DNA of 64,000 nt from Tersicoccus sp. Bi-70. GTDB lineage: Bacteria > Actinomycetota > Actinomycetes > Actinomycetales > Micrococcaceae. Position numbers and translations under genes: made by a program. Below, in pieces: positions 2,709-20,730 of this stretch; position 1 is the stretch's first letter, and each line of letters starts with the position of its first letter. The notes beneath the pieces are model-generated. The model saw only the letters and a program-made list of their open reading frames with translations, was not told the origin of the DNA and did no database searches. The stretch lies in NCBI RefSeq assembly GCF_001968825.1, contig NZ_MIEU01000011.1, positions 434,001 to 498,000 of the forward strand, in the 5' to 3' direction.

Positions 2709-5402
2709 TCAGTAGTCGTTCAGGTCCACCGTCACCGTGTCGCCCTGGATCGAGGCCTTGCCGGAGACGTAGAACGAGTCCGTGTCGGACTCCTTCGTCC
2801 ACTTCGGCTTCTCGTCCCCGAAGGACTGGTCCTCCTCGTAGGTGACCTTCGCGTCGGCGGGATCGGTGGCGTAGAAACGCCACCCCGAGCCGCTGTCGAT
2901 CGAGCTGACCCGGATCGACGGGGCGTCGGAGACCGTCCAGACCACCTTGCGGGTGTCCCCGGAGGCGTAACCGCGGAACGGGCAGCCCGTCGGTTCCAGG
3001 TCGGTCGACTTCGCGCACGCCGCGATCTTGTCCTTGACCTGGCGTTCGACCTCGGTGGCGAAGGCGTCGGTGGTGGTCAGCTCGAGGCGCGCGCTGGTGT
3101 CCCCGTCCCCGTCGATCGTCGTCTCGATCGTCGCGTCCTCGGCGGCCACCCACGTGGACCCGCCCGGCAGGCTCACCGTGTAGGTCCCCGGCAGGACCGC
3201 CGCGCTCAGCCGGGCCGTGCTCGAGAACGCGCTGGTCTTCACCGCGACCTCCGTGCCGTTGACCTTCGGCCTGGCGTCCTTCTGCCCGGAGACGGAGATC
3301 GTGGCGGTGTCCGTGTCGTCGGCCGTGAGGCTCCAGTGGTCGTCGAACAGGTCGCCGCCCCGCTTGTCCAGGACGTAGGTCTTCGTGCGGGTCCGCTCAC
3401 CCTGACGCAGTTCGGCCCGCACCGTCGCCCGGTTCCCGGCATGCTCGGTCCCCAGGATCGTGAAGCCGTCGATCCGGTTGGTCGCCGCGCGGTAGACGGC
3501 GTTGGTCAGCAGCACGCGCTTCTCCGCCGAGAGATCGGTGTGGCCGAGGGAGAGGGCCTTCTCGGCATCACCGTCGACCAGGGCCTGCAGATACGCGGTG
3601 ACCTGCTTGTCGGGCCCGTTGTTGCCGCGGATCACGTTCGTGATCACTATCCCGGCGATCAGGGCGATCACCACCACCCCGGCCACCGCCCCGAGGATCA
3701 GGGCGCGGCGCTTCGCGCGCGGACTCATCGGCGTGCGGGCCGCGGCCACCGGAGCCGTGGTACCGGTCGTCTCGGCGCCGGCGCCGGCGGCGTCGGTCGT
3801 GGCGGCGGGGTCGCCGGGAGCCGTCGCCCGTGGGCGGGGCGTGAGCAGGCGCCGCAGCCGGGCGGGGAGCGCGGGCGCGACGACGGGGGCGAGGACCCGG
3901 GCGGTCAGTTCGACCCCGAGGCCCCACGCCGCAAAGATCAGGACGAACCACCACGACGGACCGAACCCGCCCTCGGCCGAGGCGATGCCCCGGATGTCGA
4001 CCCGGGCGGTGGCGGCCAGCAGCACGGTCACGACAGCACCGGCGGCCGCCCAGGCGAGGGGCGTCACCAGCCAGCCCGCCGCGTCCCGGGAGGGCCGGCG
4101 CAGGCCGAGGACGATGCCGGCGAGCACGGTCGCGACGACGGCGAGGACCACGGCGCACCACCCCGCCCAGGCCGGGATGTTCAGCGCGTCGATGCCGGCG
4201 ACCGCCTGGAGGAGCTGGTCCGTGTCGGTGCCGGACCGGGACCGGGAGGAGAGCTGGGTCGCGTGGGCGGTCTGGTGGAGCGGGCCCAGGTGTCCGGCGA
4301 CGAGGATGTAGCCGGCGAGGTTGAGCAGCGTCAGCGGCAGGCTCAGGATCGCCTGGGGGTGGCCCCCGACGGCATAGAGCAGCACGAGCACCGGCAGGGC
4401 CACGACCACGACGACGGCGAGGTGGGTGAGCAGGGCTGCGGGCACGGCCCGAGCCGCGGCGACCAGGTCCGGGACCGTGACCATGCCGCGCGCCGGGGCG
4501 ACGGGCTGGTCGGCCGGAACCGTCGGCGTCGCAGCCGCGGGCCCGGCGGCCCACCGCCCACGGGAGCCGAGCCGGCGTCCCGCCCAGGCGGCACCGGTGC
4601 CGAGCAGGAAGGCGACGATCACCGGGACGAACCCGGCCGCGTGCACGCCGTCGACCCGGAAGGTGCTGATCGAGGGCAGGGTGATGCCGGCGAGAACGGC
4701 CACCGTGTTGACGAGGGCGCTGAGCACCACGCCCGTCACGGCCGCCTGGACCGCCGCCTGGAGGCGGCCGGCGGACGGCCGGAAGCGCTCGGCCAGGGCA
4801 CTGACGAGGGCGACCGCGAGCGCCGTCACGGCGGTCACCGCGAGGGGGACCGCGAAGAGCGCGGCCGATCCGTCGAGGGTGCCGAAGAAGGGCAGAGCCC
4901 CCGAGACGGACGCCCCCAGCGTCCCGAGGTGGGCCATCGCGATCAGCTGCACCGCTCCCGGCACCAGCAGGGACCACGGGTCCACCGCGTTCGCGCCGGC
5001 CGATGCGGCCGCACTGGAGCTGGTCAGGTCGGCCGCCCCGAGCAGGGCGAGCACGATCGCCAGCAGCGTGAACACCAGGACGCCGACGTACGCGACGACC
5101 CCGGTCGCGGCGCCGGTCCACAGCCGGATCAGGTCGATGCCGGCACCGCCGCGCGGCACCCCGGAGGTGCCGGTCGGCAGCGCTGACGTGGTGGCGGTCC
5201 CGTCGGTCGATCCGCCCACGGCGTGGGCGGATCCGTCATTCGCGGGAGTGGAAGCGCCGTGCGCGGGAGCGGACGGGCCGGGTGTGGACGGGCCGGCGGC
5301 GGCGGGTCCGGGCGAGCCGCCCGTCTCGACGGCCGGAGGTCGTTCCGGAAGGGCCGGGCGCAGGGGCCGCGGGGCTCCCGGAGGCAGGTCTGACTCACTC
5401 AT
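2709..5402 (-). CDS. Large multi-pass membrane protein with extracytoplasmic C-terminal domain
   Basis: I do not recognise this 897-residue protein. The first ~85 residues are low-complexity Pro/Ala/Gly/Ser. About eight to ten hydrophobic segments follow between roughly residues 95 and 510. A Pro/Thr/Ala linker leads to a basic stretch (SPRAKRRALI) and one more transmembrane helix near residue 570. The last ~310 residues are soluble and probably outside the cell. They start with a GDAEKALSLG segment like NTF2-type or TcaA-like exported domains and end in a beta-rich region with two Cys. A GGGGGA ribosome-binding site lies seven bases before the ATG. The architecture suggests an envelope sensor or assembly protein, but no function can be assigned. 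Confidence 0.8.
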   Translation of the reverse strand: MSESDLPPGAPRPLRPALPERPPAVETGGSPGPAAAGPSTPGPSAPAHGASTPANDGSAHAVGGSTDGTATTSALPTGTSGVPRGGAGIDLIRLWTGAATGVVAYVGVLVFTLLAIVLALLGAADLTSSSAAASAGANAVDPWSLLVPGAVQLIAMAHLGTLGASVSGALPFFGTLDGSAALFAVPLAVTAVTALAVALVSALAERFRPSAGRLQAAVQAAVTGVVLSALVNTVAVLAGITLPSISTFRVDGVHAAGFVPVIVAFLLGTGAAWAGRRLGSRGRWAAGPAAATPTVPADQPVAPARGMVTVPDLVAAARAVPAALLTHLAVVVVVALPVLVLLYAVGGHPQAILSLPLTLLNLAGYILVAGHLGPLHQTAHATQLSSRSRSGTDTDQLLQAVAGIDALNIPAWAGWCAVVLAVVATVLAGIVLGLRRPSRDAAGWLVTPLAWAAAGAVVTVLLAATARVDIRGIASAEGGFGPSWWFVLIFAAWGLGVELTARVLAPVVAPALPARLRRLLTPRPRATAPGDPAATTDAAGAGAETTGTTAPVAAARTPMSPRAKRRALILGAVAGVVVIALIAGIVITNVIRGNNGPDKQVTAYLQALVDGDAEKALSLGHTDLSAEKRVLLTNAVYRAATNRIDGFTILGTEHAGNRATVRAELRQGERTRTKTYVLDKRGGDLFDDHWSLTADDTDTATISVSGQKDARPKVNGTEVAVKTSAFSSTARLSAAVLPGTYTVSLPGGSTWVAAEDATIETTIDGDGDTSARLELTTTDAFATEVERQVKDKIAACAKSTDLEPTGCPFRGYASGDTRKVVWTVSDAPSIRVSSIDSGSGWRFYATDPADAKVTYEEDQSFGDEKPKWTKESDTDSFYVSGKASIQGDTVTVDLNDY

Positions 5403-5524
5403 GTGTATTCCCCCGATATTCGCTGTGCGAAGTGTGACGGCACCAACCTACGGTGCGGCACGCGCGAGGGCCATCACCGCCGTGCGGAAGGGGGCGGATA
5501 TGCGCGAGCGGAGGAACCGACGGC

Positions 5525-6139
5525 TCAGTGGGCCGTTCCGTCGGCCCAGGAGCCGTCGTCGGCGACGAGGGTGTCCATCAGATCGAGGCCATGCCGTCCC
5601 CAGGCGACCTCACCGCGCGCCCGCTCCACCAGTCCCTCGTAGGCGAAGCGCTTGAACGCGATCGTGCGGTCGCGGTCCTGCGGGGCGGTGACGGCGATAC
5701 GCCGGGCGAGCATGGGATTCTCGACCGCGTCGATGCGGGTCAGTTCGCGTTCCCAGCGGGCGATCTCGCCCTCCCACTGCGCGATGTGCGCCTGCAGGAA
5801 GGCCCGCGCCGACTCCGGGGTGGTCGTCTCCAGGTAGGCGGCCCGCAGGTGTGCCGGGTCCCGCACGCGCGAGTAGGGGATGGGTGCGCGCATCCAGTCG
5901 GTGAACGCCCGGTCCCCGTCGTCCGTCACGTGGTACACGCGCCGGGTGGCCCGCTCCCCGCGGGGCTGTTCCTCCCCGGCCACCAGACCCTCGGACTCCA
6001 TCTTCCGCAGCTCGGGGTAGATCTGCGAGTCGGGGGCATGCCACACGTGGCCCACCGACGCGGAGAACTGTTTCTGCAGGTCGTAGCCCGTCAGCGGGCC
6101 GACGCGCAGCAGCGCGAGCAGCGCGTATCGCAGGCTCAT
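5525..6139 (-). CDS. PadR family transcriptional regulator, VanR-like candidate
   Basis: The 204-residue protein has an N-terminal PadR winged helix (SLRYALLALLRVGPLTGYDL, then QIYPELRKMESEGLV) and a C-terminal helical dimerisation region of the Vir_act_alpha_C type. I start it at the ATG at 6139 because AAGGAG lies nine bases upstream. A longer GTG start at 6163 would translate the ribosome-binding site. It lies just beyond a LigM-type gene on the same strand, separated by a strong hairpin. In Corynebacterium glutamicum the vanillate genes are repressed by VanR, a PadR protein that releases DNA on binding vanillate. By analogy this protein probably controls the O-demethylase cluster, which is inference. 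Confidence 0.85.
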   Translation of the reverse strand: MSLRYALLALLRVGPLTGYDLQKQFSASVGHVWHAPDSQIYPELRKMESEGLVAGEEQPRGERATRRVYHVTDDGDRAFTDWMRAPIPYSRVRDPAHLRAAYLETTTPESARAFLQAHIAQWEGEIARWERELTRIDAVENPMLARRIAVTAPQDRDRTIAFKRFAYEGLVERARGEVAWGRHGLDLMDTLVADDGSWADGTAH

Positions 6140-6167
6140 CGGGGTGGGCTCCTTCGGCGGCACACGG

Positions 6168-6195
6168 CGCGAGGGGGCCGAACGGCCCCCTCGCG
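6168..6195 (-). terminator. Hairpin between the first ligM paralogue and padR
   Basis: Perfect 12-bp inverted repeat (CGCGAGGGGGCC, loop of four, GGCCCCCTCGCG) starting 13 bases after the stop of the LigM gene. There is no T-tract on either side. It probably ends or attenuates the metF-purU-ligM transcript before padR. Confidence 0.7.
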
Positions 6196-6208
6196 GGTGA
6201 GCACCACC

Positions 6209-8532
<2,324 letters not shown>

Positions 8533-8537
8533 GGCGC

Positions 8538-9467
8538 TCAGCCCCGGTCGGCCGGGTCGCCCGCCGACCGCTGGGCCGCGCTCTGGGTGGACCGCTCGGT
8601 CGCGAACCGGGTGGCCCAGTCCGCCGTCGCGCCGAGGCCGCCGAACGTGTAGAAGTGCAGGCCCACCTCGCCCGGCAGCCCGGTGCCCGGGGTGCGCTCC
8701 GCGAGCGTGGCGGCCAGGTCGTCGACGAAGCGATCGGGGCCGGCCTCGCCCATCAGGTTGGTCAGCGAGAAACCGTACTTCTTGACGATCATGGCGTTGG
8801 CGCCCACGCCGAAGCGCCGGGCGAAGCCCAGGAGCCGCTTGATGCCGGCCGGGCCGGGCGTGCCCACCCGGACGGGGGCGTCGATGCCGGCCGAGCGCAG
8901 CGTGTCGATCCACGCGACGACCGGGTCGATGTCGAAGGCGAACTGGGTGACGACGACGGCGTCGAGCCCCGCGTCCTTCAGCGCCGCCGCCTTGTCGCGC
9001 AGTGCGCCGGAGAGGGCGTCCCCGGCGATGTCGGGATGGCCCTCGGGGTAGCCGCCGATGCCGACCTCGCGGACGCCGTAGCGCTGCAGGACACCGCTGG
9101 TGATCACGGCGAGCGAGTCCTCGTAGGGACCCTCGGGGGTGGCGGGGTCCCCACCGATGGTGAACACGTGCTCGGAGGCGCCCACCTCCTGCAGGCGGCC
9201 GAGGAACTCCTCGAGCTCGTCCCGGGACTTCAGCCGACGGGCGGACAGGTGCGGGACCGGCACGAAGCCGTGCTCGCGCACGGCGCTCGCCGCGGCGACG
9301 CGCATGTCCAGGTCCTCGTTGCCGAGGAAGGTGACGTTGATCCGGGTGCCGGCCGGGATGCGGTCCTTCGCCTCCATCAGGCTGGGGACGTCCTTGCCGG
9401 TCATCTCGAGGGAGAAGCCCTCGATCAGATGCAGGGAGGCCTCGGGGTTCGATGCGGGTCGTGCCAC
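8538..9467 (-). CDS. metF: Methylenetetrahydrofolate reductase
   Basis: A 309-residue TIM-barrel flavoprotein of the MetF family. Visible elements include an early FSLEMTGKD strand, NVTFLGNEDLD, the FTIGGDPATPEGPY loop and a C-terminal GLHFYTFGG motif. The GTG start at 9467 has AAGGAG eight bases upstream. Classical MetF makes 5-methyl-THF for methionine synthesis. In lignin-aromatic degraders such as Sphingobium SYK-6 the co-located metF instead oxidises the 5-methyl-THF made by LigM. Being first gene of metF-purU-ligM supports that catabolic direction. The absence of metH/metE nearby fits but does not prove it. Confidence 0.9.
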   Translation of the reverse strand: MARPASNPEASLHLIEGFSLEMTGKDVPSLMEAKDRIPAGTRINVTFLGNEDLDMRVAAASAVREHGFVPVPHLSARRLKSRDELEEFLGRLQEVGASEHVFTIGGDPATPEGPYEDSLAVITSGVLQRYGVREVGIGGYPEGHPDIAGDALSGALRDKAAALKDAGLDAVVVTQFAFDIDPVVAWIDTLRSAGIDAPVRVGTPGPAGIKRLLGFARRFGVGANAMIVKKYGFSLTNLMGEAGPDRFVDDLAATLAERTPGTGLPGEVGLHFYTFGGLGATADWATRFATERSTQSAAQRSAGDPADRG

Positions 9468-9513
9468 GATCGGGACTCCTTTCCGCCGGGCGCCGCGATG
9501 CGCCCGTGTGACG

Positions 9514-9542
9514 ACTGTAACTATGGCGATAGGTAATGTCCA
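9514..9542 (-). promoter_or_regulatory. Sigma-70-type promoter of metF-purU-ligM
   Basis: On the minus strand TGGACA (9542-9537, five of six consensus bases) is followed after 17 bases by TACAGT (9519-9514, four of six). This sits in a short AT-rich island in otherwise very GC-rich DNA, 47 bases before the metF start. It is the best-looking classical promoter in the cluster. Confidence 0.6.
9518..9535. promoter_or_regulatory. VanR-operator-like inverted repeat in the metF promoter
   Basis: The plus strand reads TAACTAT, GGCG, ATAGGTA: two 7-base arms matching at six of seven positions around a 4-base spacer. It lies between the predicted -35 and -10 boxes and touches the -10, where a repressor would block polymerase. 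The operator I recall for the PadR protein VanR of C. glutamicum is AACTAACTAA-N4-TTAGGTATTT. Both share AACTAW-N4-WTAGGTA. Confidence 0.5.
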
Positions 9543-9555
9543 GAGGTATTTCGGC

Positions 9556-11061
9556 TCAATGCTCGGCGAGAGCGGCCGGGTCGAGGTCGGCGACGGCACG
9601 GGTGTCCTGGAAGGCGCGGATCCCGTCGATGCCCTGCTCGCGGCCGAAACCGGACTGCTTCATGCCGCCGAACGGGGCCCGCAGGTCCAGCCGGGTCGCG
9701 CCATGGTCGTTGATCCACACGTACCCGCAGGCCAGCCGGTTCGCGATGGCGCGGGCGTGCTCGGGATCGGCGGACCAGACGGACCCGCCGAGGCCGGCCC
9801 ACGTGTCGTTGGCGGCCGCGACCGCCTCGTCGTCGGAGTCGAACGGCAGCAGGGGGATGACCGGACCGAACTGCTCCTCGGTCACGACCCGCAGGGCCGG
9901 GTCCGGGTCGACGACGATCGCCGGCCGCAGGAAGTTCCCGTCCGCCAGGGCCGGGTCGGTCGGGAGGGTGCCGAACTCGCGGACGTCCGCGCCGCCGGCC
10001 CGGGCCTCCTCGATCAGCTCGGTCACGAACGCCTGCTGCGCCGAGGAATGAAGAGGGCCCATCGTGGTGCCCTCGTCGAGCCCGTACCCGATCACCGTCT
10101 TCTCCAGGCGGGCGGCCAGCCCGGCCGCGACCTCCTCGAGCCGGGAGCGGTGCACGTGGATGCGCTTGGCGTTCATGCAGATCTGGCCGGTCGTGTCGAA
10201 GATCGCCGCGTGCAGCCGGTCCAGGTGGGTGTCGTCGAGGACGGCGTCCGCGAGGACCACCGCGGCGTCGTTGCCGCCCAGTTCCAGCGTCACTCGCGTC
10301 AGCGACGTCGACGCGAGCTCCATGATCTTCTTCCCGCCGCCGACGCTGCCGGTGAAGCAGACCTTGGCGACGTGCGGGCTGGTGATCAGGGCGGACATGT
10401 CGGCGTCCCGGCCGGTGACGACGTTCAGGACGCCGGGCGGCAGCTGCTCGGCGACCCGCTGGACCACCCGGGTGGTGGCCAGGGGTGCCGAGGGCGGCGG
10501 CTTGACGATGGCGGTGTTGCCGGCCAGCAGCGCGTGCGGCAGGGCGGCGCCGAGGATCGCGATGGGCCAGTTGAACGGCACGATGACCGTGACGACGCCG
10601 AGCGGCTGGTGGGCGACCGTGGTGGTCACGGGGATGCCGGGCGCGGGGCTGAGCGTGCGCGTCGCGTCCACCTCGTCGGCCAGCTCGAGCGCGAGGTTCC
10701 ACCGCAGCTCGAAGACGAGCGAGTCGACCCAGGACTCCATCCGGATCTTGCCGTTCTCGCGGGAGAGGATCGCGGCGTCCTCGTCGCGGGCCTCGGCGAT
10801 GCCGGCCAGCGCGGCCCGCATCGCGTCGGCGCGCTCGGCGGCGCTCAGGGCGGCCCAGGCCGGCTGGGCGGAGCGCGCGGCGGCGATCGCGTCGTCGACG
10901 TCGGCCGTGGTCGCGGCGGCGGCGTGCCCGACGATCTCGCCGGGGCGTCCCGGGTCGGGCACCGTCAGGGTGTCGGTCGTGGTGCGGGCCTCCCCGCCGA
11001 TGTAGAGGCCCGTGCTGACGGGCGTCGACGTGTCGGCGGGGGCGGGGGTGGTGTCGGTCAT
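9556..11061 (-). CDS. NAD(P)-dependent aldehyde dehydrogenase
   Basis: A 501-residue member of the ALDH superfamily. Motifs in order are VIVPFNWPIAI and GNTAIVKPPPSAP (cofactor site), FTGSVGGGKKIME, the general-base motif LELGGNDAAVV, the catalytic Cys in GQICMNAKR, EEQFGPVIPLLPF and a C-terminal PFGGMKQSGFGREQG. It is 39 bases downstream of the second LigM paralogue and probably in its operon. An aldehyde such as vanillin or syringaldehyde is a plausible substrate. Oxidation would give the carboxylate that LigM enzymes demethylate. The family is broad, so the substrate is a guess from context. Confidence 0.9.
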   Translation of the reverse strand: MTDTTPAPADTSTPVSTGLYIGGEARTTTDTLTVPDPGRPGEIVGHAAAATTADVDDAIAAARSAQPAWAALSAAERADAMRAALAGIAEARDEDAAILSRENGKIRMESWVDSLVFELRWNLALELADEVDATRTLSPAPGIPVTTTVAHQPLGVVTVIVPFNWPIAILGAALPHALLAGNTAIVKPPPSAPLATTRVVQRVAEQLPPGVLNVVTGRDADMSALITSPHVAKVCFTGSVGGGKKIMELASTSLTRVTLELGGNDAAVVLADAVLDDTHLDRLHAAIFDTTGQICMNAKRIHVHRSRLEEVAAGLAARLEKTVIGYGLDEGTTMGPLHSSAQQAFVTELIEEARAGGADVREFGTLPTDPALADGNFLRPAIVVDPDPALRVVTEEQFGPVIPLLPFDSDDEAVAAANDTWAGLGGSVWSADPEHARAIANRLACGYVWINDHGATRLDLRAPFGGMKQSGFGREQGIDGIRAFQDTRAVADLDPAALAEH

Positions 11062-11100
11062 CGGTCCTTCACTCCTCGGGAGCGGGCGGTTGGGGGCGGA

Positions 11101-12474
11101 TCAGGCGTTCGCGCGGTAGACGGTGCGCGCGAACTCGTGGAACGGGGCGGGCGCGACCGTCGCGCGGATGTGGACCTGCCGGTGGTCGGCGTCGACGCCG
11201 GCCTTGCGGGAGACGGGGTTCTCGCCCCAGACGACCTCGACCTCCGTGCCGTCGGGGATGTCCACGTCCAAGGTGGCGAGCGACATGTACAGCTGGTCGT
11301 GGGCGACGTAGCCGGCGTCGGTCGAGATGCCGACGCGGGCGCCGTCCCGGACCACCTCGTCCATCTGGAACAGCCCGTAGCGGGCCTTCGGGAAGTCGAG
11401 GTACTTGGCGGGGGTGCCGGGCTCGAGCTGGGAGCGGACGACGGCGGCGACGTCCTCGGCGTTCCAGATCAGCGTGACCTTGTGCCGCCGCTGGTTCTCG
11501 GCGTGCTTCTCGAGGGCGGCCCGGCCGTGGAAGTCGTGGTCGAACCGGACGGACCGTCCCAGGCCGATGTCCCAGGGCGTCAGGTAGAAGTCGTGGACGT
11601 CGGTCGAGTACAGGGAGCCGCCGATCGAGCCGGCCCGGGCGGCGGGCAGCCAGTCCCGGTACTCGGCCAGGTCCTCGCCGAAGATGGCGGGGAACGGGGT
11701 GGGCACCCAGCCCGACTCCAGCGGAGAGGAGGAGTAGGCCTTCGCGCCGACCCGGCGGATCCCGAACTCCTCGCCGGCCTCCATCAGCGCGTCGAGCACC
11801 GTCTCGTTGTCCTCCCACGGCCCGTAGAACTCGAAGCCGGGCTGCCCGGCCATGCCGTGCCGCAGCGCCTTGACCGGCCGGCCGGCGATCGTCACGTCGC
11901 CGATGTGGAAGAACTTGATGTCGGGGGCCGGGCCGCCGAACACCTTCTCCATCACGCGATCGGCGTGCGGGCCCTGCAGTTCGTAGCGGTAGAAGGTGGG
12001 CGGCCCCTGGCGCATGTGCGAGTTGGCCTCGAGACGGTGGGAGACGTCCCTGCCCTCGGCGGCGGCCTTCTCCACGTTGAACCGCACCCAGTCGATCAGC
12101 AGGTGGTGCCCGATCAGCACGAGGCCCTCGGGTTCGTCGGCACGGTGGTAGAAGAGGATGCCGTCGCCGATCAGGTAGCCGTCCGCGTTCACGGCGATCA
12201 GCTGCTTCGCCACGCCCGGGCGGAAGGTCGCGAAGGTGTTCGGCGAGATGGAGGCGAGCAGGTCGATCAGGTCGGAACCTCCGAGGAACAGCTGCGTCAT
12301 GTGATGCGACTGGTCCATCAGGGCGACGGAGGTGTTCCAGGCGCGCTGCTCGTCGCGCCAGTTCGTGAACTCGGGGGCCACCGGGAACGTGAAGGCCGGC
12401 CAGTCCTGGTTGCGGAGGAGCTCGACGGGGCTGCTGGCCCGGTCGATCGCACGGGCAAGTGATTCGGAGGTCAT
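11101..12474 (-). CDS. LigM/DesA-family THF-dependent demethylase, divergent paralogue 2
   Basis: A 457-residue GcvT-fold protein colinear with the other two LigM paralogues. It shares DQSHHM, YLIGDGILF, the ALRHGMAGQPGFEFYGPW core, AKAYSSSPLESGW (Tyr247) and the FDHDFHGRAALE motif. It differs at positions that are constant in the other two copies. The YIYP segment is FTFP (Tyr28 and Tyr30 replaced by Phe) and the Arg after VG (Arg121) is His123. That Arg is the residue I recall as binding the vanillate carboxylate in LigM. The methyl donor may therefore lack the benzoate carboxylate. It is first in a probable ligM2-ALDH operon, divergent from paralogue 3. Confidence 0.85.
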   Translation of the reverse strand: MTSESLARAIDRASSPVELLRNQDWPAFTFPVAPEFTNWRDEQRAWNTSVALMDQSHHMTQLFLGGSDLIDLLASISPNTFATFRPGVAKQLIAVNADGYLIGDGILFYHRADEPEGLVLIGHHLLIDWVRFNVEKAAAEGRDVSHRLEANSHMRQGPPTFYRYELQGPHADRVMEKVFGGPAPDIKFFHIGDVTIAGRPVKALRHGMAGQPGFEFYGPWEDNETVLDALMEAGEEFGIRRVGAKAYSSSPLESGWVPTPFPAIFGEDLAEYRDWLPAARAGSIGGSLYSTDVHDFYLTPWDIGLGRSVRFDHDFHGRAALEKHAENQRRHKVTLIWNAEDVAAVVRSQLEPGTPAKYLDFPKARYGLFQMDEVVRDGARVGISTDAGYVAHDQLYMSLATLDVDIPDGTEVEVVWGENPVSRKAGVDADHRQVHIRATVAPAPFHEFARTVYRANA

Positions 12475-14049
<1,575 letters not shown>

Positions 14050-14107
14050 GCCGGCGGGCCGGAGGAGCCGCCTGCGATCCTCATCGCGAACACGTCTTGC
14101 AAAATCG

Positions 14108-14137
14108 TTGACAATCTCGTTGCCTACTCCGTACGGT
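14108..14137 (+). promoter_or_regulatory. Promoter of the Liv-type transporter operon
   Basis: A perfect TTGACA (14108-14113) is followed after 18 bases by TACGGT (14132-14137), about 80 bases before the first ATPase gene. The 165-base gap after LigM paralogue 3 has no clear terminator, so read-through from that gene is also possible. Confidence 0.5.
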
Positions 14138-14214
14138 CAGGGCACCGGGGGGCGGATTCCGCCATGTCAGACCCGTGCACAGTCCATGCAACGGCGCAAG
14201 AATGAGGTGCGAGG

Positions 14215-14997
14215 ATGGCCGCAGGCCTGAGCCTTGACGACGTCAGCCTGCAGTTCGGCGGCGTCAAGGTGCTCTCGGGGGTGAGCTTCGACGTCGAGCC
14301 CGGCGTGATCCTCGGTCTCGTGGGTCCCAACGGTGCGGGCAAGACGTCGCTGTTCAACTGCATCAGCGGTCACTATCGGCCCTCCGGCGGCTCCATCACC
14401 ATCGACGGCACCGAGGTGGTGGGCAGCCCGCCGTCGCGCCTCGCGCGGCTCGGGCTCTCCCGCACCTTCCAGCACCCCGCGCTGCGGCTGAACGCGACCG
14501 TGCTGGACAACGTCCTCCTCGGCGGCCACACCCGGCTGCCCGGTGGACCGGTCTGGTGGGCGCTCGGCCTGCCGTCGACGGCGCGGGCCGAGCGCGACAT
14601 CCGCGAGGAGGCGCTGACGATGCTCGACGGCGCGGGCCTGGGCTGGGCCGCGCACCTGCCGGCCGACGAGCTCTCCCACGGTCTGCACAAGGGCATCGAG
14701 CTGTGGCGGGCCCTGCTGTCGCGGCCCTCGCTGCTGCTGCTGGACGAGCCCGCCGCCGGCCTCTCCCACGGGGAGGTCGACCAGCTGATCACCTCGGTAC
14801 GGCGGATCCGGGACGAGCAGGACATCACCGTGGTCATCGTCGAGCACCACATGGGGCTCATCTCGGCCCTGACGGACCGCGTCGTCGTCCTCGATCACGG
14901 GAGCAAGCTGATGGAGGGCACCGCCGCGCAGGCCCAGGCCGACCCGCGGGTCATCGAGGCCTATCTCGGGAAGGACGCGGCCGATGACGCTGCTTGA
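14215..14997 (+). CDS. livG: Liv-type ABC transporter ATPase, LivG-like
   Basis: A 260-residue nucleotide-binding subunit of a branched-chain amino acid/aromatic-type (HAAT) importer. The Walker A is VGPNGAGKTS, the Walker B is SLLLLDEP followed by AAGLSHGEVD, and the switch His sits in VIVEHHMG. The ABC signature is unusual: LSHGLHKGIELWRALL where LivG proteins normally have LPYGQQR-LEIARAL. It overlaps livF by 14 bases. Together with LivF, two permeases and a lipoprotein it forms a full importer. The neighbouring demethylases suggest an aromatic acid substrate. Confidence 0.88.
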   Translation: MAAGLSLDDVSLQFGGVKVLSGVSFDVEPGVILGLVGPNGAGKTSLFNCISGHYRPSGGSITIDGTEVVGSPPSRLARLGLSRTFQHPALRLNATVLDNVLLGGHTRLPGGPVWWALGLPSTARAERDIREEALTMLDGAGLGWAAHLPADELSHGLHKGIELWRALLSRPSLLLLDEPAAGLSHGEVDQLITSVRRIRDEQDITVVIVEHHMGLISALTDRVVVLDHGSKLMEGTAAQAQADPRVIEAYLGKDAADDAA

Positions 14998-15694
14998 GCT
15001 CGACGGCGTCACGGCGTCGTACGGACCGGTCCAGGTGCTGGACGGGATCTCCCTGTCCGTGCCGGAGGGGGGCGCCGTCGGTGTGCTGGGCGCGAACGGC
15101 GCCGGAAAGACCACCACCCTGCGCGCCATCAGCGGGGCCGTCCGCACCGGCGGCAGCATCCGGTTCGACGGCCGGAGCATCCGGGGGCTGCGTCCCGAAC
15201 AGGTAGCGGCGCTCGGCATCGCCCACGTGCCCGAGGGGCGCGGCACCCTCGCGCAGCTGAGCGTGCGGGAGAACCTCGCGGTGGGCGCCTACCGGCGCCG
15301 GGACCGCCGTCAGATCGCCGCCGACGTCGACTACTGCCTCGAGCTCTTCCCACAGCTGCGGGAGCGGATCGGCTCCCGCGCCGCGGCCCTCTCCGGTGGT
15401 GAGCAGCAGATGCTCGCCGTGGGGCGCGCCTTCATGGCCCGGCCCCGCCTGCTGCTGCTGGACGAGGCATCCCTCGGGCTGGCACCGGGGACCGCGAAGA
15501 CCGTGTACGCGGCCATCCGCCGGCTGCGCGTCGAGTCGGGCATCGCGATGCTCGTCGTCGAGCAGAACGCCAACCTCGCGTTCACCCTCGTCGACACCGC
15601 GACCGTGCTCGAGACCGGCCGGAGCGTGCTGACCGGGACCTCGGCCGAGCTGGCGGGCAAGGACGAGATCCGTCGCGCCTACCTGGGGGGCTGA
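14984..15694 (+). CDS. livF: Liv-type ABC transporter ATPase, LivF-like
   Basis: The second nucleotide-binding subunit, 236 residues. It has a canonical Walker A (GANGAGKTTT), a canonical signature (LSGGEQQMLAVGRAFMARP), Walker B LLLLDEASLGLAP and the switch motif VVEQNA. LivF-typical HVPEGRG follows the first lobe. Its start lies within the end of livG and it ends four bases before the first permease gene. With the atypical signature in LivG, this subunit carries the only consensus LSGGQ-like loop of the pair. Confidence 0.9.
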   Translation: MTLLELDGVTASYGPVQVLDGISLSVPEGGAVGVLGANGAGKTTTLRAISGAVRTGGSIRFDGRSIRGLRPEQVAALGIAHVPEGRGTLAQLSVRENLAVGAYRRRDRRQIAADVDYCLELFPQLRERIGSRAAALSGGEQQMLAVGRAFMARPRLLLLDEASLGLAPGTAKTVYAAIRRLRVESGIAMLVVEQNANLAFTLVDTATVLETGRSVLTGTSAELAGKDEIRRAYLGG

Positions 15695-15698
15695 CCAC

Positions 15699-16580
15699 AT
15701 GGGAACCTTCATCCAGCTCGTGATCGACGGCCTGTCCACGGGGTCGATCTACGCGGCCCTCGCGCTGGCCATCGTGCTCGTCAACCAGGCGACCGGCCTG
15801 ATCAACTTCGCCCAGGGCGGCCTGGCCGTGCTCAGCGCGTACGTCGCCTACGCGTGCCTGGGCGTCGGGATACCGCTGCTGCCGGCGGTGCTGATCGCCG
15901 TCGTCCTCTCCTTCGTGCTCGGCGGACTGGTCGAGCGCTTCCTGATCCGGCGGTTCGAGGGCGGGGATCCGGACACCGCCGTGGTCGTGACCATCGGCCT
16001 GCTCACGCTGGTCACCGGGGTCACGGCGCTGATCTGGGGCTACAACAACCTCCAGTTCCCCTCCCTGTTCCCGCTCACCAGCGTGGACGTGCTGGGCGCG
16101 GTGGTCAGCGTCCGGTCGCTCGCGACGACGGCGACCATCGTCGCCATCATGGTGATCCTCCAGGTGCTGTTCCTGCGCACCAAGCTCGGGCTCGCCCTGC
16201 GCGCCGTCGCCGACAACCCCCGCTCCTCCGCCCTCTCCGGCCTTCCGGTCGGGCGGCTGCTGATGGTCGGATGGGGCCTCGCGGCCGCCCTCGGCGCCGT
16301 CGCCGGGGCGCTGGTCGCGCCGCAGCTCACCCTCACGCCCGGCATGCTCGACGGCGCCCTGGTGTACGCGCTCGCCGCGGTGATCCTCGGCGGGCTGGAC
16401 AGCCCGCTCGGTGCGGTCGTCGCCGCCTGGGCGATCGGCGTGCTCGAGAACCTGGTGGCCGTCTACGTCCCGCTGATCGGGCACGACCTGAAGATCGCGG
16501 TGCCGTTCGTGCTGATCTTCGTCATCCTGATCCTCCGCCCCCAGGGCCTGTTCGGCCGGAAAGTCGTGGTGCGCGTCTAG
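15699..16580 (+). CDS. livH: Liv-type ABC transporter permease, LivH-like
   Basis: A 293-residue integral membrane protein with about eight hydrophobic helices. It opens with the LivH-type QLVIDGLSTGSIYAALALA segment and INFAQGG, and has the EAA-like coupling loop with LGLALRAVADNP. It forms half of the membrane channel. The stop codon TAG is directly followed by the ATG of the next permease. Confidence 0.9.
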   Translation: MGTFIQLVIDGLSTGSIYAALALAIVLVNQATGLINFAQGGLAVLSAYVAYACLGVGIPLLPAVLIAVVLSFVLGGLVERFLIRRFEGGDPDTAVVVTIGLLTLVTGVTALIWGYNNLQFPSLFPLTSVDVLGAVVSVRSLATTATIVAIMVILQVLFLRTKLGLALRAVADNPRSSALSGLPVGRLLMVGWGLAAALGAVAGALVAPQLTLTPGMLDGALVYALAAVILGGLDSPLGAVVAAWAIGVLENLVAVYVPLIGHDLKIAVPFVLIFVILILRPQGLFGRKVVVRV

Positions 16581-17702
16581 ATGAGCACAGTGACCCGATC
16601 CTCCCGGCGGTCCGCCCGCGGTCCGGGCGCACGACGCCGGCCCCTGTTGGTGGGCCTGACCGTGCTCGCCGTCGTCCTCCTGCTGGTGATCCCGTTCGTC
16701 CTGCCGCCGCTCGGCAACCAGACGCTGGTGCGCATCGGCGTCTACGCGGTCGCCATCCTCGGCCTGAACATCGTGATGGGCTACACCGGGCAGGTGAACC
16801 TGGGCCAGATCTTCTTCCTCGGCCTCGGCGCCTACGTCACCGCCTACGGCGTGACCCAGGGCTGGAACATCCTGCTCGTCCTCGTCGCGGCGTGCGTCAT
16901 CCCGGGTCTCGTCGGCCTGCTGGTGGCGCTCGCCGCCGCCCGGCTCGGGGGCCTCGCGATCGCCATGGTCACGATCGCCCTGCCGATCGTCGGCGTCCCG
17001 CTGGCCAAGCGGCTCGACGAGTTCACCGGCGGTTCCCAGGGCGTCTCGGCGATCTTCTCGAACGCCCCCGACTGGTCCGGTCTGTTCAACGACCAGTGGC
17101 AGTACTACATCGTCCTGGTGGTGGGCGGCGTCGCCTTCCTGCTCGCCCGGAAACTGGTCCGCGGCAAGTACGGCCGTGCGTTCAGCGTCGTGAAGAACAA
17201 CGAGGCGGTCGCCTCGGCGATGGGCGTCTCCCCGTACTGGACGAAGGTCACCGCCTTCACGATCGCCTCGATCTTCGGCGGGGCGAGCGGCTTCCTCTAC
17301 ATCGCCGCCGTCCAGTACACCTCACCCGAGACGCTGAGCTTCGGCCACTCGATCTCCCTGCTGGCCGCCATGGTGATCGGCGGCGCGGGCAGCATCGCCG
17401 GCTCCCTCATCGGCGGGTTCTTCTACGTGCTCGTGCCCCAGCTGACCAACGCCGTGGACCCGAACCTGACCACGGTCAGCCAGGGCGTGCTGCTCCTCGC
17501 CGTCCTGTTCCTGCTGCCCGACGGCCTCGTCAGCCTGCCGCGGGCGCTCCGGCGAGCCTTCCGCCGCCGCTCCGGTGGACCGCCGAGAGCGACGCCGGAC
17601 GACTCCGCGACGCCCCCTTCGACTTCCCTCACCCAGCATGCTCCCGCGCAGGATCCGATCACGGACGTTGCGCCGGAGACCACACCCACCAGAGAGGCAT
17701 GA
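16581..17702 (+). CDS. livM: Liv-type ABC transporter permease, LivM-like
   Basis: A 373-residue integral membrane permease. It has GLNIVMGYTGQVNLGQ near residue 55, the second family motif GRAFSVVKNNEAVASAMG (coupling helix), and a final group of helices ending in the LLPDGLVSLPRAL segment typical of LivM. The last ~50 residues are a hydrophilic Pro/Thr/Arg-rich tail. There is no gap from livH, and the stop overlaps the region of the binding-protein start. Confidence 0.9.
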   Translation: MSTVTRSSRRSARGPGARRRPLLVGLTVLAVVLLLVIPFVLPPLGNQTLVRIGVYAVAILGLNIVMGYTGQVNLGQIFFLGLGAYVTAYGVTQGWNILLVLVAACVIPGLVGLLVALAAARLGGLAIAMVTIALPIVGVPLAKRLDEFTGGSQGVSAIFSNAPDWSGLFNDQWQYYIVLVVGGVAFLLARKLVRGKYGRAFSVVKNNEAVASAMGVSPYWTKVTAFTIASIFGGASGFLYIAAVQYTSPETLSFGHSISLLAAMVIGGAGSIAGSLIGGFFYVLVPQLTNAVDPNLTTVSQGVLLLAVLFLLPDGLVSLPRALRRAFRRRSGGPPRATPDDSATPPSTSLTQHAPAQDPITDVAPETTPTREA

Positions 17703-17704
17703 CC

Positions 17705-18970
17705 ATGACCGTTCGGAAAGGGACTCGCGTGACACCGCGAGCCCGCTGGGTCGGCGCCGTCGCCGTCGCATCGGTGCTCGCGATCTCGCTGACGGGCTGC
17801 CGCGGCAGCGCTCAGAGCGGCGGCGCCGCGTCGACGCCGGGCATCACCGACACCTCCATCACCCTCGGCATCACCACGCCGCTGAGCGGGACCACCGCCG
17901 GGCCGGGCACCTGCACCGTCGCCGGTGTCAAGGCCTACTTCGGCGCGAAGAACGCCGAGGGCGGGGTGAAGTTCGGGGACGGCAAGACCCGCAAGGTCGA
18001 GATCAAGACCTACGACGACGCCTACGACCCGCAGAAGTCGCTCGCCAACTTCCAGCAGATGACCTCGGACGGCGTGTTCGCGGAGACCTCCGGCCTGGGC
18101 ACGCCCACCAACCGGGCGTTCCGCGAGGCCGCCATCAGCCAGAAGGTCCCGCAGGCCCTGGTCATGACGGGCGACCCGCTCTTCAGCAACCGGCAGCAGA
18201 GCCCCTGGCAGCTCGGCCTGGTGCCGGTCTACCAGAACGAGGGTGCCGCGTTCGGCAAGCTGCTCGCCGACTCGGGCGGGACCCACAAGGTCGCGATCCT
18301 CTCCCAGAACGACGACTACGGCAAGGGCTACGTCGCCGGGTTCAAGGAGGCCGTGAAGGGGAAGTCCGGTATCTCGATCGTCGGCGAGCAGACCTACGAG
18401 GCGACCGACACCTCGGTCGACGCGCAGATCACGCAGCTCGCGTCGTCGAAGGCCGACGTGATCCTCAACGCCATGTCCGTCACGCCGCTGGCCATCTCGG
18501 CGCTGCAGAAGGCGCAGCAGATCGGCTGGAAGCCGAGCTGGTTCCTGCCCTCGAACACATCGAGCCCGACGGCGATCCTGCAGCCCGGTGGCGCCACGGC
18601 GTACCCGGGGGTCTACTCGGTCTCCTTCGCGAAGGCCCCGCAGAGCCCGGCCTTCGCCAAGGACGCCGACGTGGTCAAGTTCCTCGCCGACCTCAAGCAG
18701 TACGGCGACTACAAGGAGGCCCCGGCGTTCCCGCACTGCATGTGGAGCTACATCGCGGGCGCGACGCTGGACAAGGCGTTCTCCACCATGACCGAGCCGA
18801 CCCGCGACAGCTTCATGTCCGCGCTGCGCAACATCAAGGGCTTCCAGGCGCCGCTGATGCTCCAGGGCACGCAGGTCGACACGACGGTCGAGGGCCAGCC
18901 GGCCATCTCCTCCGTGGTGGTGCAGAAGTTCAACGGCAAGGGGTACGCCACCGCCGCCAAGTTCGGCTGA
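17705..18970 (+). CDS. livJ: Substrate-binding lipoprotein of the Liv-type importer
   Basis: A 421-residue periplasmic-binding-protein-type I receptor (Peripla_BP_6). A basic N-terminus and hydrophobic segment lead to the lipobox ISLTGC, so the mature protein should be lipid-anchored. The mature part begins ITDTSITLGITTPLSG, a family hallmark. I use the second ATG (17705) because AGAGG lies seven bases before it. An ATG at 17699 is too close to that site. The sequence does not reveal the ligand. The demethylase context favours a methoxylated aromatic acid, but the family also binds amino acids and amides. Confidence 0.88.
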   Translation: MTVRKGTRVTPRARWVGAVAVASVLAISLTGCRGSAQSGGAASTPGITDTSITLGITTPLSGTTAGPGTCTVAGVKAYFGAKNAEGGVKFGDGKTRKVEIKTYDDAYDPQKSLANFQQMTSDGVFAETSGLGTPTNRAFREAAISQKVPQALVMTGDPLFSNRQQSPWQLGLVPVYQNEGAAFGKLLADSGGTHKVAILSQNDDYGKGYVAGFKEAVKGKSGISIVGEQTYEATDTSVDAQITQLASSKADVILNAMSVTPLAISALQKAQQIGWKPSWFLPSNTSSPTAILQPGGATAYPGVYSVSFAKAPQSPAFAKDADVVKFLADLKQYGDYKEAPAFPHCMWSYIAGATLDKAFSTMTEPTRDSFMSALRNIKGFQAPLMLQGTQVDTTVEGQPAISSVVVQKFNGKGYATAAKFG

Positions 18971-18978
18971 TCGACGTG

Positions 18979-19004
18979 ACCCCGGCCGGCTCAGCGGCCG
19001 GGGT
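18979..19004 (+). terminator. Terminator hairpin after the transporter operon
   Basis: Perfect 10-bp stem (ACCCCGGCCG / CGGCCGGGGT) with a 6-base loop, eight bases after the lipoprotein stop. Confidence 0.7.
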
Positions 19005-19020
19005 GACGCCGTATCGTCCA

Positions 19021-19064
19021 CGACAGGAGCCCGCGTCCACCTCGGTGACCGCGGGCTCCTGTCG
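19021..19064 (+). terminator. Second hairpin after the transporter operon
   Basis: Perfect 15-bp inverted repeat (CGACAGGAGCCCGCG at 19021-19035, complement at 19050-19064) with a 14-base loop. It is followed by a run of short repeats. It probably backs up the first terminator, for both the transporter operon and the convergent cupin gene. Confidence 0.65.
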
Positions 19065-19103
19065 TGCTGCCGTGCTGTCGTGCTGCCGTGCTGTCGTGCT
19101 GTC
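19064..19103. repeat. Five tandem copies of an 8-base unit
   Basis: GTGCTGCC or GTGCTGTC occurs five times in a row, alternating C/T at the seventh base. The period is not a multiple of three and no gene covers it. It lies between the operon terminator and the cupin gene end. It is a candidate slipped-strand microsatellite. Confidence 0.85.
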
Positions 19104-19123
19104 GTCCGTCGCTGCGTGGTCCG

Positions 19124-19519
19124 TCAGGACGCCGGCGGGACCTCGCTCCAGGCCGGCTTCCCGCCCGCCGCGGTCGAGGTGATCGACCGGCCCATGATCA
19201 TGAAGCGGGCCTCCTCCCGGGCGACGGGCGCGTGCTCCACCCCCTGCGGGACGACGAAGAGGTCGCCCGTGGCGAGGCGCACGGCACGCTCGGCCGCCGG
19301 GTCGCGCTCGTCGTCGCGCAGGCGCACCGTCAGTTCGCCCTCGAGCACCAGGAACAGTTCGTCCTGATCGTCGTGGTGGTGCCAGTTCACCTCGCCGATG
19401 CCTTTCGCGACCTTGACGAGGCTGCCGTTGGCGGAGGCGACGACCCGCTGCGACCAGTAGGAGTCCAGGTCGGCGGCGGCTGCGGCGAGGGTGACGGGCT
19501 GGGTGACGATGTGTGACAT
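19124..19519 (-). CDS. Small cupin-domain protein
   Basis: A 131-residue single-domain cupin. The metal-binding motif 1 reads WHHHDDQDELFLVLEGEL and motif 2 is GDLFVVPQGVEHAP, giving a likely three-His/one-Glu site. It is divergent from the DJ-1/AraC regulator with 51 bases between the starts, so that regulator may control it. Small cupins of this type include dioxygenases, isomerases and sugar-binding proteins. The reaction cannot be inferred. Confidence 0.8.
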   Translation of the reverse strand: MSHIVTQPVTLAAAAADLDSYWSQRVVASANGSLVKVAKGIGEVNWHHHDDQDELFLVLEGELTVRLRDDERDPAAERAVRLATGDLFVVPQGVEHAPVAREEARFMIMGRSITSTAAGGKPAWSEVPPAS

Positions 19520-19531
19520 CCTTCGACGCTA
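19520..19531 (-). promoter_or_regulatory. Possible leaderless promoter of the cupin gene
   Basis: On the minus strand TAGCGT (19531-19526) is followed after six bases (CGAAGG) by the ATG. The AAGG directly abutting the ATG is too close to act as a Shine-Dalgarno, which favours a leaderless message. Confidence 0.35.
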
Positions 19532-19570
19532 CGGTCGCGCGTGTCGGCGCACGAGTGCTAGGAATGGCAC

Positions 19571-20647
19571 ATGTCGCAAGGATCCTGGCAGCCGCCGCGC
19601 CCGATCCCGTCCGCTCCGTCGTCGATCGAGGAGCCGCATCGGGTCGCCCTGCTGGTCGACGACGGCTCCAACCCGTTCGAGATGTCCTGTGCGTGCGAGA
19701 TCTTCGGAGCGTCCCGGCGGTCCGAGATCGGTTTCGATCCGTACCGGCTGACGGTCGTGGCGCCGTCCTCGCGCACGCGCATGCGGGCCGGCCTGTTCGA
19801 GATCACCGCGACCGGCACGCTGGAGGACCTGGCCGAGGCGGAGACCGTCATCGTCCCCAACCGGCCCGACGTCGCGACGCCCACGCGGCCGGCGGTTCTC
19901 GACGCCATCCGGGCGGCGCACGAACGCGGCGCCCGGCTCGTCGGCCTCTGCACCGGAGCCTTCACCCTCGCCGAGGCGGGCCTGCTGGACGGCCGCCCCG
20001 CCGCCGTGCACTGGCAGCTGGCCGCGGCGTTCCGCGCCCGGTACCCGCGGGTGCGGGCGCAGCCGGACGTCCTGTTCGTCGACGACGAGGACATCCTGAC
20101 CTCGGCGGGCAGCGCCGCGGCGCTGGACCTCGGCCTGCACATCGTGCGGAAGGACCACGGCGCGGCGGTCGCCCACCACGTGAGCCGGCGCCTCGTCTAC
20201 GCCTCGTTCCGGGACGGCGGCCAGCGGCAGTTCGCGGAGCACCCGGCGCCCGAGGCCGCGGACCGTTCCTTCGCGGCGACCATCGCCTGGGCGGAGGCGC
20301 AGCTCGACGCGCCGCTGGGCGTGCAGGACCTCGCCGCCCACGCGGGCGTCAGCGTCGCCACCGTGCACCGGCGCTTCCGCACCGCGTTCGGCACCACGCC
20401 GCTGGCCTGGCTCACCCTCCGGCGCGTGGAACTCGCCCGGCGACTGCTCGAGTACGACGCCGGGTCGGTGGAGATGATCGCGGCGCGCAGCGGGCTCGGA
20501 TCCGCGGCCAACCTGCGGGCCCTGCTCCGGCGCCACACCGGCCTCACCCCGAGCGACTACCGCGCCCGGAATCGGGCGACCTCGACCCGTCCGGGCGTCC
20601 CGTGCCCGGAGGGCGACCGCGCGCAGGAGGACCTCCTGCGAACCTGA
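19571..20647 (+). CDS. DJ-1/PfpI-AraC transcriptional regulator (GlxA/FtrA type)
   Basis: A 358-residue two-domain regulator. The N-terminal DJ-1/PfpI domain includes the nucleophile-elbow segment GLCTGAFTLAEAGLLDG and TSAGSAAALDLGLHI. The C-terminal AraC-type double helix-turn-helix starts near residue 240 (VQDLAAHAGVSVATVHRRFR) and continues through the second helix-turn-helix and the TPLAWLTLRRVELARRLLE signature. AGGA lies seven bases before the ATG. It is divergent from the cupin gene, its most likely target. A 20-bp hairpin ends the gene. Confidence 0.9.
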   Translation: MSQGSWQPPRPIPSAPSSIEEPHRVALLVDDGSNPFEMSCACEIFGASRRSEIGFDPYRLTVVAPSSRTRMRAGLFEITATGTLEDLAEAETVIVPNRPDVATPTRPAVLDAIRAAHERGARLVGLCTGAFTLAEAGLLDGRPAAVHWQLAAAFRARYPRVRAQPDVLFVDDEDILTSAGSAAALDLGLHIVRKDHGAAVAHHVSRRLVYASFRDGGQRQFAEHPAPEAADRSFAATIAWAEAQLDAPLGVQDLAAHAGVSVATVHRRFRTAFGTTPLAWLTLRRVELARRLLEYDAGSVEMIAARSGLGSAANLRALLRRHTGLTPSDYRARNRATSTRPGVPCPEGDRAQEDLLRT

Positions 20648-20686
20648 CGTGTGCGGGGCCCAGCCGGCGGGACACATCCCGAGCAA

Positions 20687-20730
20687 CGACGAAGGCCCGG
20701 ACCCACATCCGTGGGTCCGGGCCTTCGTCG
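20687..20730. terminator. Strong bidirectional terminator
   Basis: Perfect 20-bp stem (20687-20706 with 20711-20730) around the 4-base loop ATCC. It lies between the AraC regulator (plus) and the tRNA gene (minus), so it should stop transcription from both. Confidence 0.9.

Follow-up and report, generated by a model that had tools for sequence, protein, structure and literature searches.

How might a member of the Micrococcaceae import methoxylated aromatic compounds, remove their methyl groups and dispose of both the one-carbon (C1) unit and the ring, and does a single gene block suffice for this? The question is raised by positions 5525-18970 of a 64,000-nucleotide stretch of contig C11 of Tersicoccus sp. 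Bi-70 (hereafter the window; the genome comprises 3.48 Mb in 18 contigs), where an initial annotation had placed a self-contained tetrahydrofolate (THF)-dependent O-demethylation pathway with three LigM paralogues and an importer of its own. Here we report that all the genes named for this block are found there with open frames and with agreeing family calls in Pfam and NCBIfam, which bears out its gene content and order, including the aldehyde dehydrogenase and the PadR-family regulator. The block stands far above chance, with three GCV_T proteins scoring 118-140 bits inside 8 kb. Judged by homology and conservation, it is a real, conserved module, a variant of THF-dependent demethylation with predicted activity on methoxylated aromatics, and it probably forms the upper section of a regulon for the catabolism of methoxy-aromatics of the vanillate/syringate type. 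We further propose, with somewhat less than even confidence, that a three-locus GntR-type regulon marked by the site ATTG-N4-CAAT serves the use of lignin methoxy acids, that a type I (VOC-fold) extradiol dioxygenase, not a member of the LigB family, would cleave the ring of gallate or 3-O-methylgallate, and that the LigM-B protein with its importer would represent a new demethylase branch lacking the usual carboxylate clamp.

LigM-family proteins in a conserved gene order

The block is arranged as two divergent units whose facing genes, ligM-B and ligM-C, are 171 bases apart (Table 1). The minus-strand unit consists of ligM-B, aldehyde dehydrogenase, metF, purU, ligM-A and padR, the plus-strand unit of ligM-C, livG, livF, livH, livM and the binding lipoprotein gene. 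Eight proteins of the genome match PF01571; with the LigM model NF047885 (cut-off 580) the three from the block score 899.4 (LigM-C), 874.8 (LigM-A) and 448.8 bits (LigM-B), and the next one 60. LigM-A and LigM-C share 67.8% and 65.2% identity, respectively, with LigM of Sphingobium SYK-6. For the phylogeny, homologs with fewer than 400 aligned residues and three duplicates were dropped from the alignment (140 of 143 rows kept); the first tree holds 75 of 144 sequences, namely 28 of the 97 LigM rows (25 of them hand-picked) and all 47 others, and the second holds 69, with six long or odd rows left out. In the 75-row tree, LigM-A and LigM-C fall inside the LigM group (28 rows, Shimodaira-Hasegawa-like approximate likelihood ratio test [SH-aLRT] 99), where SYK-6 LigM is joined by 25 other rows (SH-aLRT 97), and the nearest rows outside their own genus come from Sinomonas (Micrococcaceae). 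By model and tree, LigM-A and LigM-C are LigM.

The description as three LigM paralogues holds for these two and fails for LigM-B, which lies outside the cut-offs of both relevant models (448.8 bits vs 580 for LigM; 490.9 vs 800 for the DesA model NF047633, still its best match in NCBIfam). LigM-B belongs to a 13-row clade of its own (SH-aLRT 100 in the 75-row tree) that adjoins an 18-row group, here called c56, with a joint SH-aLRT of 88 in the first tree and 92 in the second, neither of them starred. Forcing LigM-B together with the two DesA rows, which are DesA by model score alone, the tree holding no characterized DesA sequence, was marginally rejected (approximately unbiased test, p-AU 0.043). 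The AlphaFold model of LigM-B (mean predicted local distance difference test score [pLDDT] 79.1) matches the LigM structure 5x1i with Z 42.8 and a root mean square deviation of 2.5 over 433 aligned residues, ahead of the glycine-cleavage T-protein (Z 29.6) and dimethylsulfoniopropionate (DMSP) demethylase (Z 26.3). None of the three proteins passes the NCBIfam cut-offs for DMSP, sarcosine or glycine-cleavage enzymes (DmdA 38.6-45 bits, cut-off 410; soxA 35.7-41.6, cut-off 1164; gcvT 50.7-55.8, cut-off 235.85). The comparison with LigM, DesA and DmdA that the initial annotation had suggested thus yields two LigM, no DmdA and one protein that reaches neither the LigM nor the DesA cut-off; model scores, tree and fold agree in placing the demethylases in the LigM family.

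LigM-B differs from LigM and DesA at two putative substrate-binding positions. In what we take to be LigM numbering, the residues corresponding to Tyr247, His60 and Glu215 do not vary across the LigM, DesA, LigM-B and c56 groups, the catalytic Tyr being kept in 97/97 LigM, 13/13 LigM-B-type and 18/18 c56 rows. Position 122 is Arg throughout the 97 LigM rows and the two DesA rows, His in all 13 LigM-B rows, and His (12/18) or Trp (6/18) in c56; position 31 is Tyr in the same 97 LigM and both DesA rows and Phe in all 31 rows of LigM-B and c56. Arg122 and Tyr31 presumably clamp the substrate carboxylate. One possible reading, to which we give somewhat less than an even chance, is that the substrate of LigM-B is a methoxylated aromatic lacking a benzoate carboxylate and that this compound enters through the adjacent importer. 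Besides the two replacements, it draws on the divergent arrangement of ligM-B and livG within 3 kb in 11 of 13 LigM-B loci besides that of the window (10 of 12 once loci L068 and L105, which show one gene, are counted together); against it, ligM-C sits between ligM-B and livG both in the window and in Sinomonas, several loci have the importer near LigM-C-type genes without LigM-B, and the carboxylate could be bound in another way despite the loss of Arg.

About as plausible, though again short of probable, is that LigM-B, although distant from DesA, fills its role as syringate demethylase in actinobacteria. The DesA model is its best match (490.9 vs 448.8 bits for LigM), the genome holds a lower gene set for gallate/3-O-methylgallate, and its other PF01571 proteins score below 61 bits with the LigM model; on the other side stand the large shortfall from the DesA cut-off of 800, the marginally rejected grouping with the DesA rows and the missing Arg and Tyr that LigM and both DesA rows share. 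A third idea, suggested by the Sinomonas gene orders, that LigM-B is a SesA-type methylene transferase, was set aside, as LigM-B models best on LigM; SesA is reported to group with BrdA, away from LigM and DesA (PMC5547118). The c56 group (L039:12590-13939, L082, L091 and others) is a further LigM-fold clade, and several genera have c56 and LigM-C in the same loci.

The order PadR-LigM-A-PurU-MetF-aldehyde dehydrogenase-LigM-B/LigM-C-Liv recurs in three Sinomonas genomes (L060, L085 and L095; in the latter two the fetched DNA stops before all Liv genes are visible), with a VOC dioxygenase gene (L060, L095) and a GntR gene (all three) in between. In one genus-mate, G433, window positions 2709-19064 form a single collinear alignment at 83.9% nucleotide identity, and this genome has the module, an orthologue of the VOC dioxygenase described below and the 4-oxalomesaconate (OMA) tautomerase. 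The other genus-mate, G405, yielded no LigM over the cut-off, no PF02219 and no tautomerase match, and only a 30% identical VOC paralogue. In a class-wide sample of 394 genomes, 10 (our own included) have a match over the LigM cut-off, 8 of them LigM-type, because G131 and G200 score higher with DesA and pass its cut-off. A LigM scan of named genomes, which is not a census, gave 77 loci from the best 80 matches, 75 of them actinobacterial. PadR (at least 50% identity) is found in 27 of these 77 loci, the aldehyde dehydrogenase (at least 60%) in 16, LivG (at least 65%) in 24, LivF in 24, and LivH and the binding protein in 22 each, with LivM inside the same conserved Liv block. The sub-block MetF-PurU-LigM-A-PadR recurs in Microbacterium and others. 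An AraC/DJ-1 regulator (19571-20647), downstream of the importer and next to tRNA-Pro (20749-20825), was rejected as a module member: the stretch 19065-20687 has no nucleotide match longer than 150 bases in G433.

Table 1. Features of the demethylation block in window coordinates
Feature	Position	Strand	Assignment
PadR-family regulator	5525-6139	-	last gene of minus unit; PF03551 62.1 bits, cut-off 27
LigM-A (P0001), vanillate/3-O-methylgallate O-demethylase homologue	6209-7621	-	NF047885
PurU, formyl-THF deformylase	7660-8532	-	TIGR00655 347.9 bits, cut-off 285.95
MetF, short non-canonical methylenetetrahydrofolate reductase (MTHFR)	8538-9467	-	PF02219 35.3 bits; PDB 7xg9 285 bits
Aldehyde dehydrogenase	9556-11061	-	PF00171 414 bits
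LigM-B (P0002), separate clade of LigM-fold proteins	11101-12474	-	NF047633 490.9, NF047885 448.8, both below cut-off
Candidate operator ATTGTCACCAAT	12570-12581	.	ATTG-N4-CAAT, divergent promoter region
LigM-C (P0003), vanillate/3-O-methylgallate O-demethylase homologue	12646-14049	+	NF047885
LivG-type ABC ATPase	14215-14997	+	PF00005 95.3, PF12399 38.4 bits
LivF-type ABC ATPase	14984-15694	+	PF00005 92.1 bits
LivH-type permease	15699-16580	+	PF02653 115.9 bits
LivM-type permease	16581-17702	+	PF02653 123.1 bits
Extracellular substrate-binding lipoprotein	17699-18970	+	PF13458 154.6 bits

The C1 arm and the importer

The proposal that metF and purU convert methyl-THF to formate is supported by PurU, which passes its TIGR00655 model, and by MetF, whose closest solved structure is PDB 7xg9 (50.5% identity over 275 amino acids); 7xg9 is presumably SYK-6 MetF, and dicamba gene clusters presumably contain metF and purU, two points on which nothing here depends. 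MetF scores 39.2 bits with the canonical FAD-type model TIGR00676 (cut-off 293.7), and no other protein of the genome matches PF02219; among 61 sampled genomes of the family, 30 have a match at 187-253 bits and 15 have none. Searches with PF02965 (MetH; 0 of the 3 genus genomes) and PF01717 (one weak match in each) found no standard MetH or MetE in the genome. Because these searches turned up neither enzyme in standard form and MetF is the sole PF02219 protein, MetF probably runs oxidatively, from methyl-THF to methylene-THF. A formate dehydrogenase, which the initial annotation had proposed to look for elsewhere, is present on contig C10 (358.7-368.6 kb, L153); read across an in-frame TGA, it scores 1944.4 bits with NF041513 (cut-off 1400), and its locus holds selD, selA and selB, each over its cut-off, with a tRNA-Sec gene between selD and selA, pointing to a selenocysteine-type enzyme.

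That the module is mainly a C1-supply device, delivering methyl- and methylene-THF for biosynthesis while the aromatic ring is only partly used, appears improbable. It would fit the sole PF02219 match and a core methionine-synthase-like gene (L161:13861-15090; PF01717 45.1 bits, cut-off 21) lying about 3 kb before the LigU-like locus, and SYK-6 is reported to need methoxy groups for methionine when grown on a methoxy-free substrate (PMC6888825). However, PurU throws the C1 unit away as formate, PF02965 is absent from all three genus genomes and the PF01717 matches are weak, and the genome has a protocatechuate 3,4-cleavage cluster as well as a LigU/J/K/I-like set. Another family of core methionine-synthase-like proteins (L071:3685-4797) occurs in 8 LigM loci; the methyl group might be routed through proteins of this kind. 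MetF-like proteins of a second class, 32-35% identical to that of the window, lie near other LigM-family genes (L044, L045, L046, L048, L050 and L051).

The aldehyde dehydrogenase contains ELGG and GQICMN, which we take to be functional motifs of its family, and scores below the cut-off of every NCBIfam equivalog among the matches listed (25 of 40). The five-gene Liv-type importer is likewise present, and conserved across LigM loci. By Pfam it is the same type of transporter as Liv, at scores under the Liv equivalog cut-offs: LivG 216.9 bits (NF008449, cut-off 362), LivF 209 (best NCBIfam match, cut-off 441), LivH 72.1 (cut-off 379), LivM 91.7 (cut-off 366) and the binding protein 34.8 (cut-off 477), with the UrtB and UrtC matches of the two permeases also below cut-off. 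The binding protein carries LTGC near its N-terminus, a putative lipobox. In 21 of the 24 importer loci (L068 and L105 overlap) a LigM-family gene lies within 2.5 kb, a closeness that is partly built in, because all loci were chosen for LigM.

Ring-opening genes on other contigs and a shared candidate operator

No ring-cleavage gene is visible in the window by PF00775, PF02900 and VOC searches, as had been stated for the block; for the genome this does not hold. The pcaGH genes, the LigU/J/K/I-like set, the VOC dioxygenase and the formate dehydrogenase all lie on other contigs, so the pathway is not self-contained. Contig C10 encodes a PF00775 pair (pcaGH), one member passing the pcaH model, a 4-hydroxybenzoate 3-monooxygenase (pobA) that passes a subfamily cut-off, and pcaD- and pcaF-like proteins that miss the strict ones; pcaB and pcaC were not confirmed. 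A cluster on contig C2 encodes the LigU-like OMA tautomerase (476 bits, cut-off 440), a LigK-type aldolase (382 bits, cut-off 304.5), a LigJ-like hydratase (558 bits with PDB 2gwg) and a LigI-like hydrolase (358 bits with PDB 4d8l), whose best NCBIfam match is a 4-sulfomuconolactone hydrolase, below cut-off.

This lower set lacks the expected ring opener: PF02900, the LigB-superfamily dioxygenase model, has no match in the genome. A VOC-fold extradiol dioxygenase is encoded at G000:C10:283533-284495 (L156:11516-12496), and likewise at L059:6294-7247; the C10 protein is 91% identical to a VOC dioxygenase in an Agromyces LigM locus. The VOC dioxygenase (at least 60% identity) occurs in 20 of the 77 LigM loci, always within 4.5 kb of a LigM-C-type gene, and these 20 loci also hold the tautomerase (18), the aldolase (16) and a PIG-L-family protein (16) that by eye looks GalB-like. 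Residues H160, H222 and E274, the putative metal ligands, are invariant in nine aligned sequences; a structure model built from a nine-row alignment has a mean pLDDT of 50.7. We regard the VOC enzyme as the best candidate for opening gallate or 3-O-methylgallate, because no LigB-family dioxygenase was found. The protein scores 306.2 bits with the catechol 2,3-dioxygenase model TIGR03211, just under its cut-off of 320.2 (PF00903, 70.6 bits), and catechol is therefore a live alternative substrate; its closest PDB entry is 9wgj, named catechol 1,2-dioxygenase. Gallate dioxygenases are placed in the LigB superfamily (PMC4250580), and none of the titles and abstract openings listed from an open-access collection showed a VOC-type gallate dioxygenase. 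At the 60% threshold, LigB lies within 4.5 kb in none of the 20 VOC loci. The idea that VOC and LigB genes exclude each other was also considered and discarded: with looser clustering, 23 VOC and 15 LigB loci share 3, against 4-5 expected by simple proportion, which shows nothing.

The three loci appear to be tied together by a palindrome. The sequence ATTGTCACCAAT lies in the LigM-B/LigM-C gap, where ATTG-N4-CAAT is found in all five genomes of the intergenic alignment (the window, the genus-mate and three Sinomonas). In the window, the 77 loci and L154 combined, this pattern occurs 28 times vs 0-3 times in eight simulations, and 24 of the 28 sites fall in the 300 bases preceding a listed pathway or regulator gene, regions that together cover 5.2% of the sequence. 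Of 12 control patterns counted, the five with at least two sites (besides spacing variants) were tested for position; their sites preceded listed genes in 1/22 (TGAT-N4-ATCA), 0/11 (ACTT-N4-AAGT), 1/6, 0/3 and 0/2 cases. A p-value would overstate the independence of these counts, because the loci are related. Within 190 kb of the organism's own loci there are three sites (60 simulations averaged 0.03 and never exceeded one): before LigM-B/LigM-C, before the VOC gene (L156:12592) and before the tautomerase gene (L161:18170), the last 47 bases ahead of its GTG start. A second site in the window with one mismatch (14104-14115) was not counted, as 1.8 such matches per window are expected by chance. 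The three unlinked loci thus look like one regulon sharing ATTG-N4-CAAT, and the candidate site is probably read by the GntR/FCD protein encoded beside the VOC gene, which is 38-58% identical to GntR proteins of LigM loci. Both GntR and PadR are reported as VanR classes (PMC12314914), and the reported VanO operator ATTGGATCCAAT has the same ATTG-N4-CAAT frame, the frame alone being compared (PMC7970624); those regulators are described for VanAB oxygenase genes, unlike the demethylase block here.

In the proposed pathway, where gene family, order, clade and site position guide the assignments, the Liv-type importer would bring in small methoxylated aromatics and the aldehyde dehydrogenase would oxidize aromatic aldehydes to acids. 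LigM-A and LigM-C would demethylate vanillate or 3-O-methylgallate, with THF as acceptor of the O-methyl group, and LigM-B would act likewise on another methoxylated compound, which might be syringate or lack a benzoate carboxylate. MetF would then convert methyl-THF to methylene-THF, FolD methylene-THF to formyl-THF, and PurU formyl-THF to formate and THF, with the formate oxidized by the dehydrogenase encoded elsewhere. Protocatechuate would pass to PcaGH, whereas gallate or 3-O-methylgallate would be opened by the VOC-fold dioxygenase and the product processed by the LigU/J/K/I-like enzymes; the genes for these steps occupy two further loci that also bear the site which the GntR protein probably reads.

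Several points weigh against this scheme. The substrates of the block enzymes are predictions from homology, and LigM-B lacks the Arg/Tyr pair of true LigM and both DesA rows, which weakens any substrate assignment for it. The importer scores give no pointer to an aromatic cargo, and the PDB matches of the binding protein are weak (at most 49.6 bits), with leucine binders among them. A divergent Rv2172c-type MTHFR may escape PF02219 and a short MetH may escape PF02965, and PurU may serve general C1 balance. The 190 kb scanned for the site consist of own loci picked for holding pathway genes, and two control palindromes are also frequent (TGAT-N4-ATCA, 22 sites; ACTT-N4-AAGT, 11). The best NCBIfam match of the GntR protein is a phosphonate regulator, below cut-off, and GntR is not the sole candidate regulator, because PadR is encoded in the operon.

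Relation to known systems and significance

In SYK-6, ligM, metF and ligH form one operon, and demethylation is reported as the source of methyl-THF (PMC6888825). The block resembles this system in its LigM homologues (68% and 65% identity), in having metF in the ligM operon and in the predicted transfer of the methyl group to THF. It differs in having two LigM proteins plus a third clade, a Liv-type importer, PurU in place of LigH, a PadR protein and a GntR-type candidate site where SYK-6 ligM is under the MarR-type DesR, and no LigB-family ring-opening enzyme found by PF02900 in the genome. LigM-B resembles DesA in its LigM fold and in scoring best with the DesA model, and differs from it by its sub-cut-off score, its separate clade and its other residues at the Arg/Tyr positions. 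The genome has counterparts of the LigU, LigJ, LigK and LigI enzymes of the gal/lig lower pathways, for which the names and roles GalD/LigU, GalB/LigJ, GalC/LigK and LigI have been given (PMC12314914), but a VOC-fold protein with the shared site instead of their LigB-family ring opener.

The view that actinobacteria mostly use VanAB or P450 demethylases is fair, but LigM- or DesA-like genes have already been published for them, DesA-like genes among actinobacterial metagenome-assembled genomes (PMC9296663). For Dmt06, a THF-dependent demethylase of dicamba that was cloned from a consortium and characterized, identity with an Actinomadura protein is reported (PMC9404685). These proteins likewise extend the THF-dependent aryl demethylase family beyond the sphingomonads; the substrate of Dmt06 is dicamba, and the available text of the two papers does not describe the present gene order, importer or operator.

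THF-dependent demethylation matters for lignin use because the methyl carbon is kept and the step needs no oxygen or NAD(P)H, unlike that of VanAB. Here it takes the form of a patchily distributed actinobacterial module that brings an importer and a C1 exit of its own. The second LigM-fold clade, formed by LigM-B and its c56 relatives and as yet uncharacterized, may extend this enzyme family to further substrates. Through the shared site, a whole pathway can be tested at three loci; the site also points to a ring opener of unexpected fold for gallate-type compounds.

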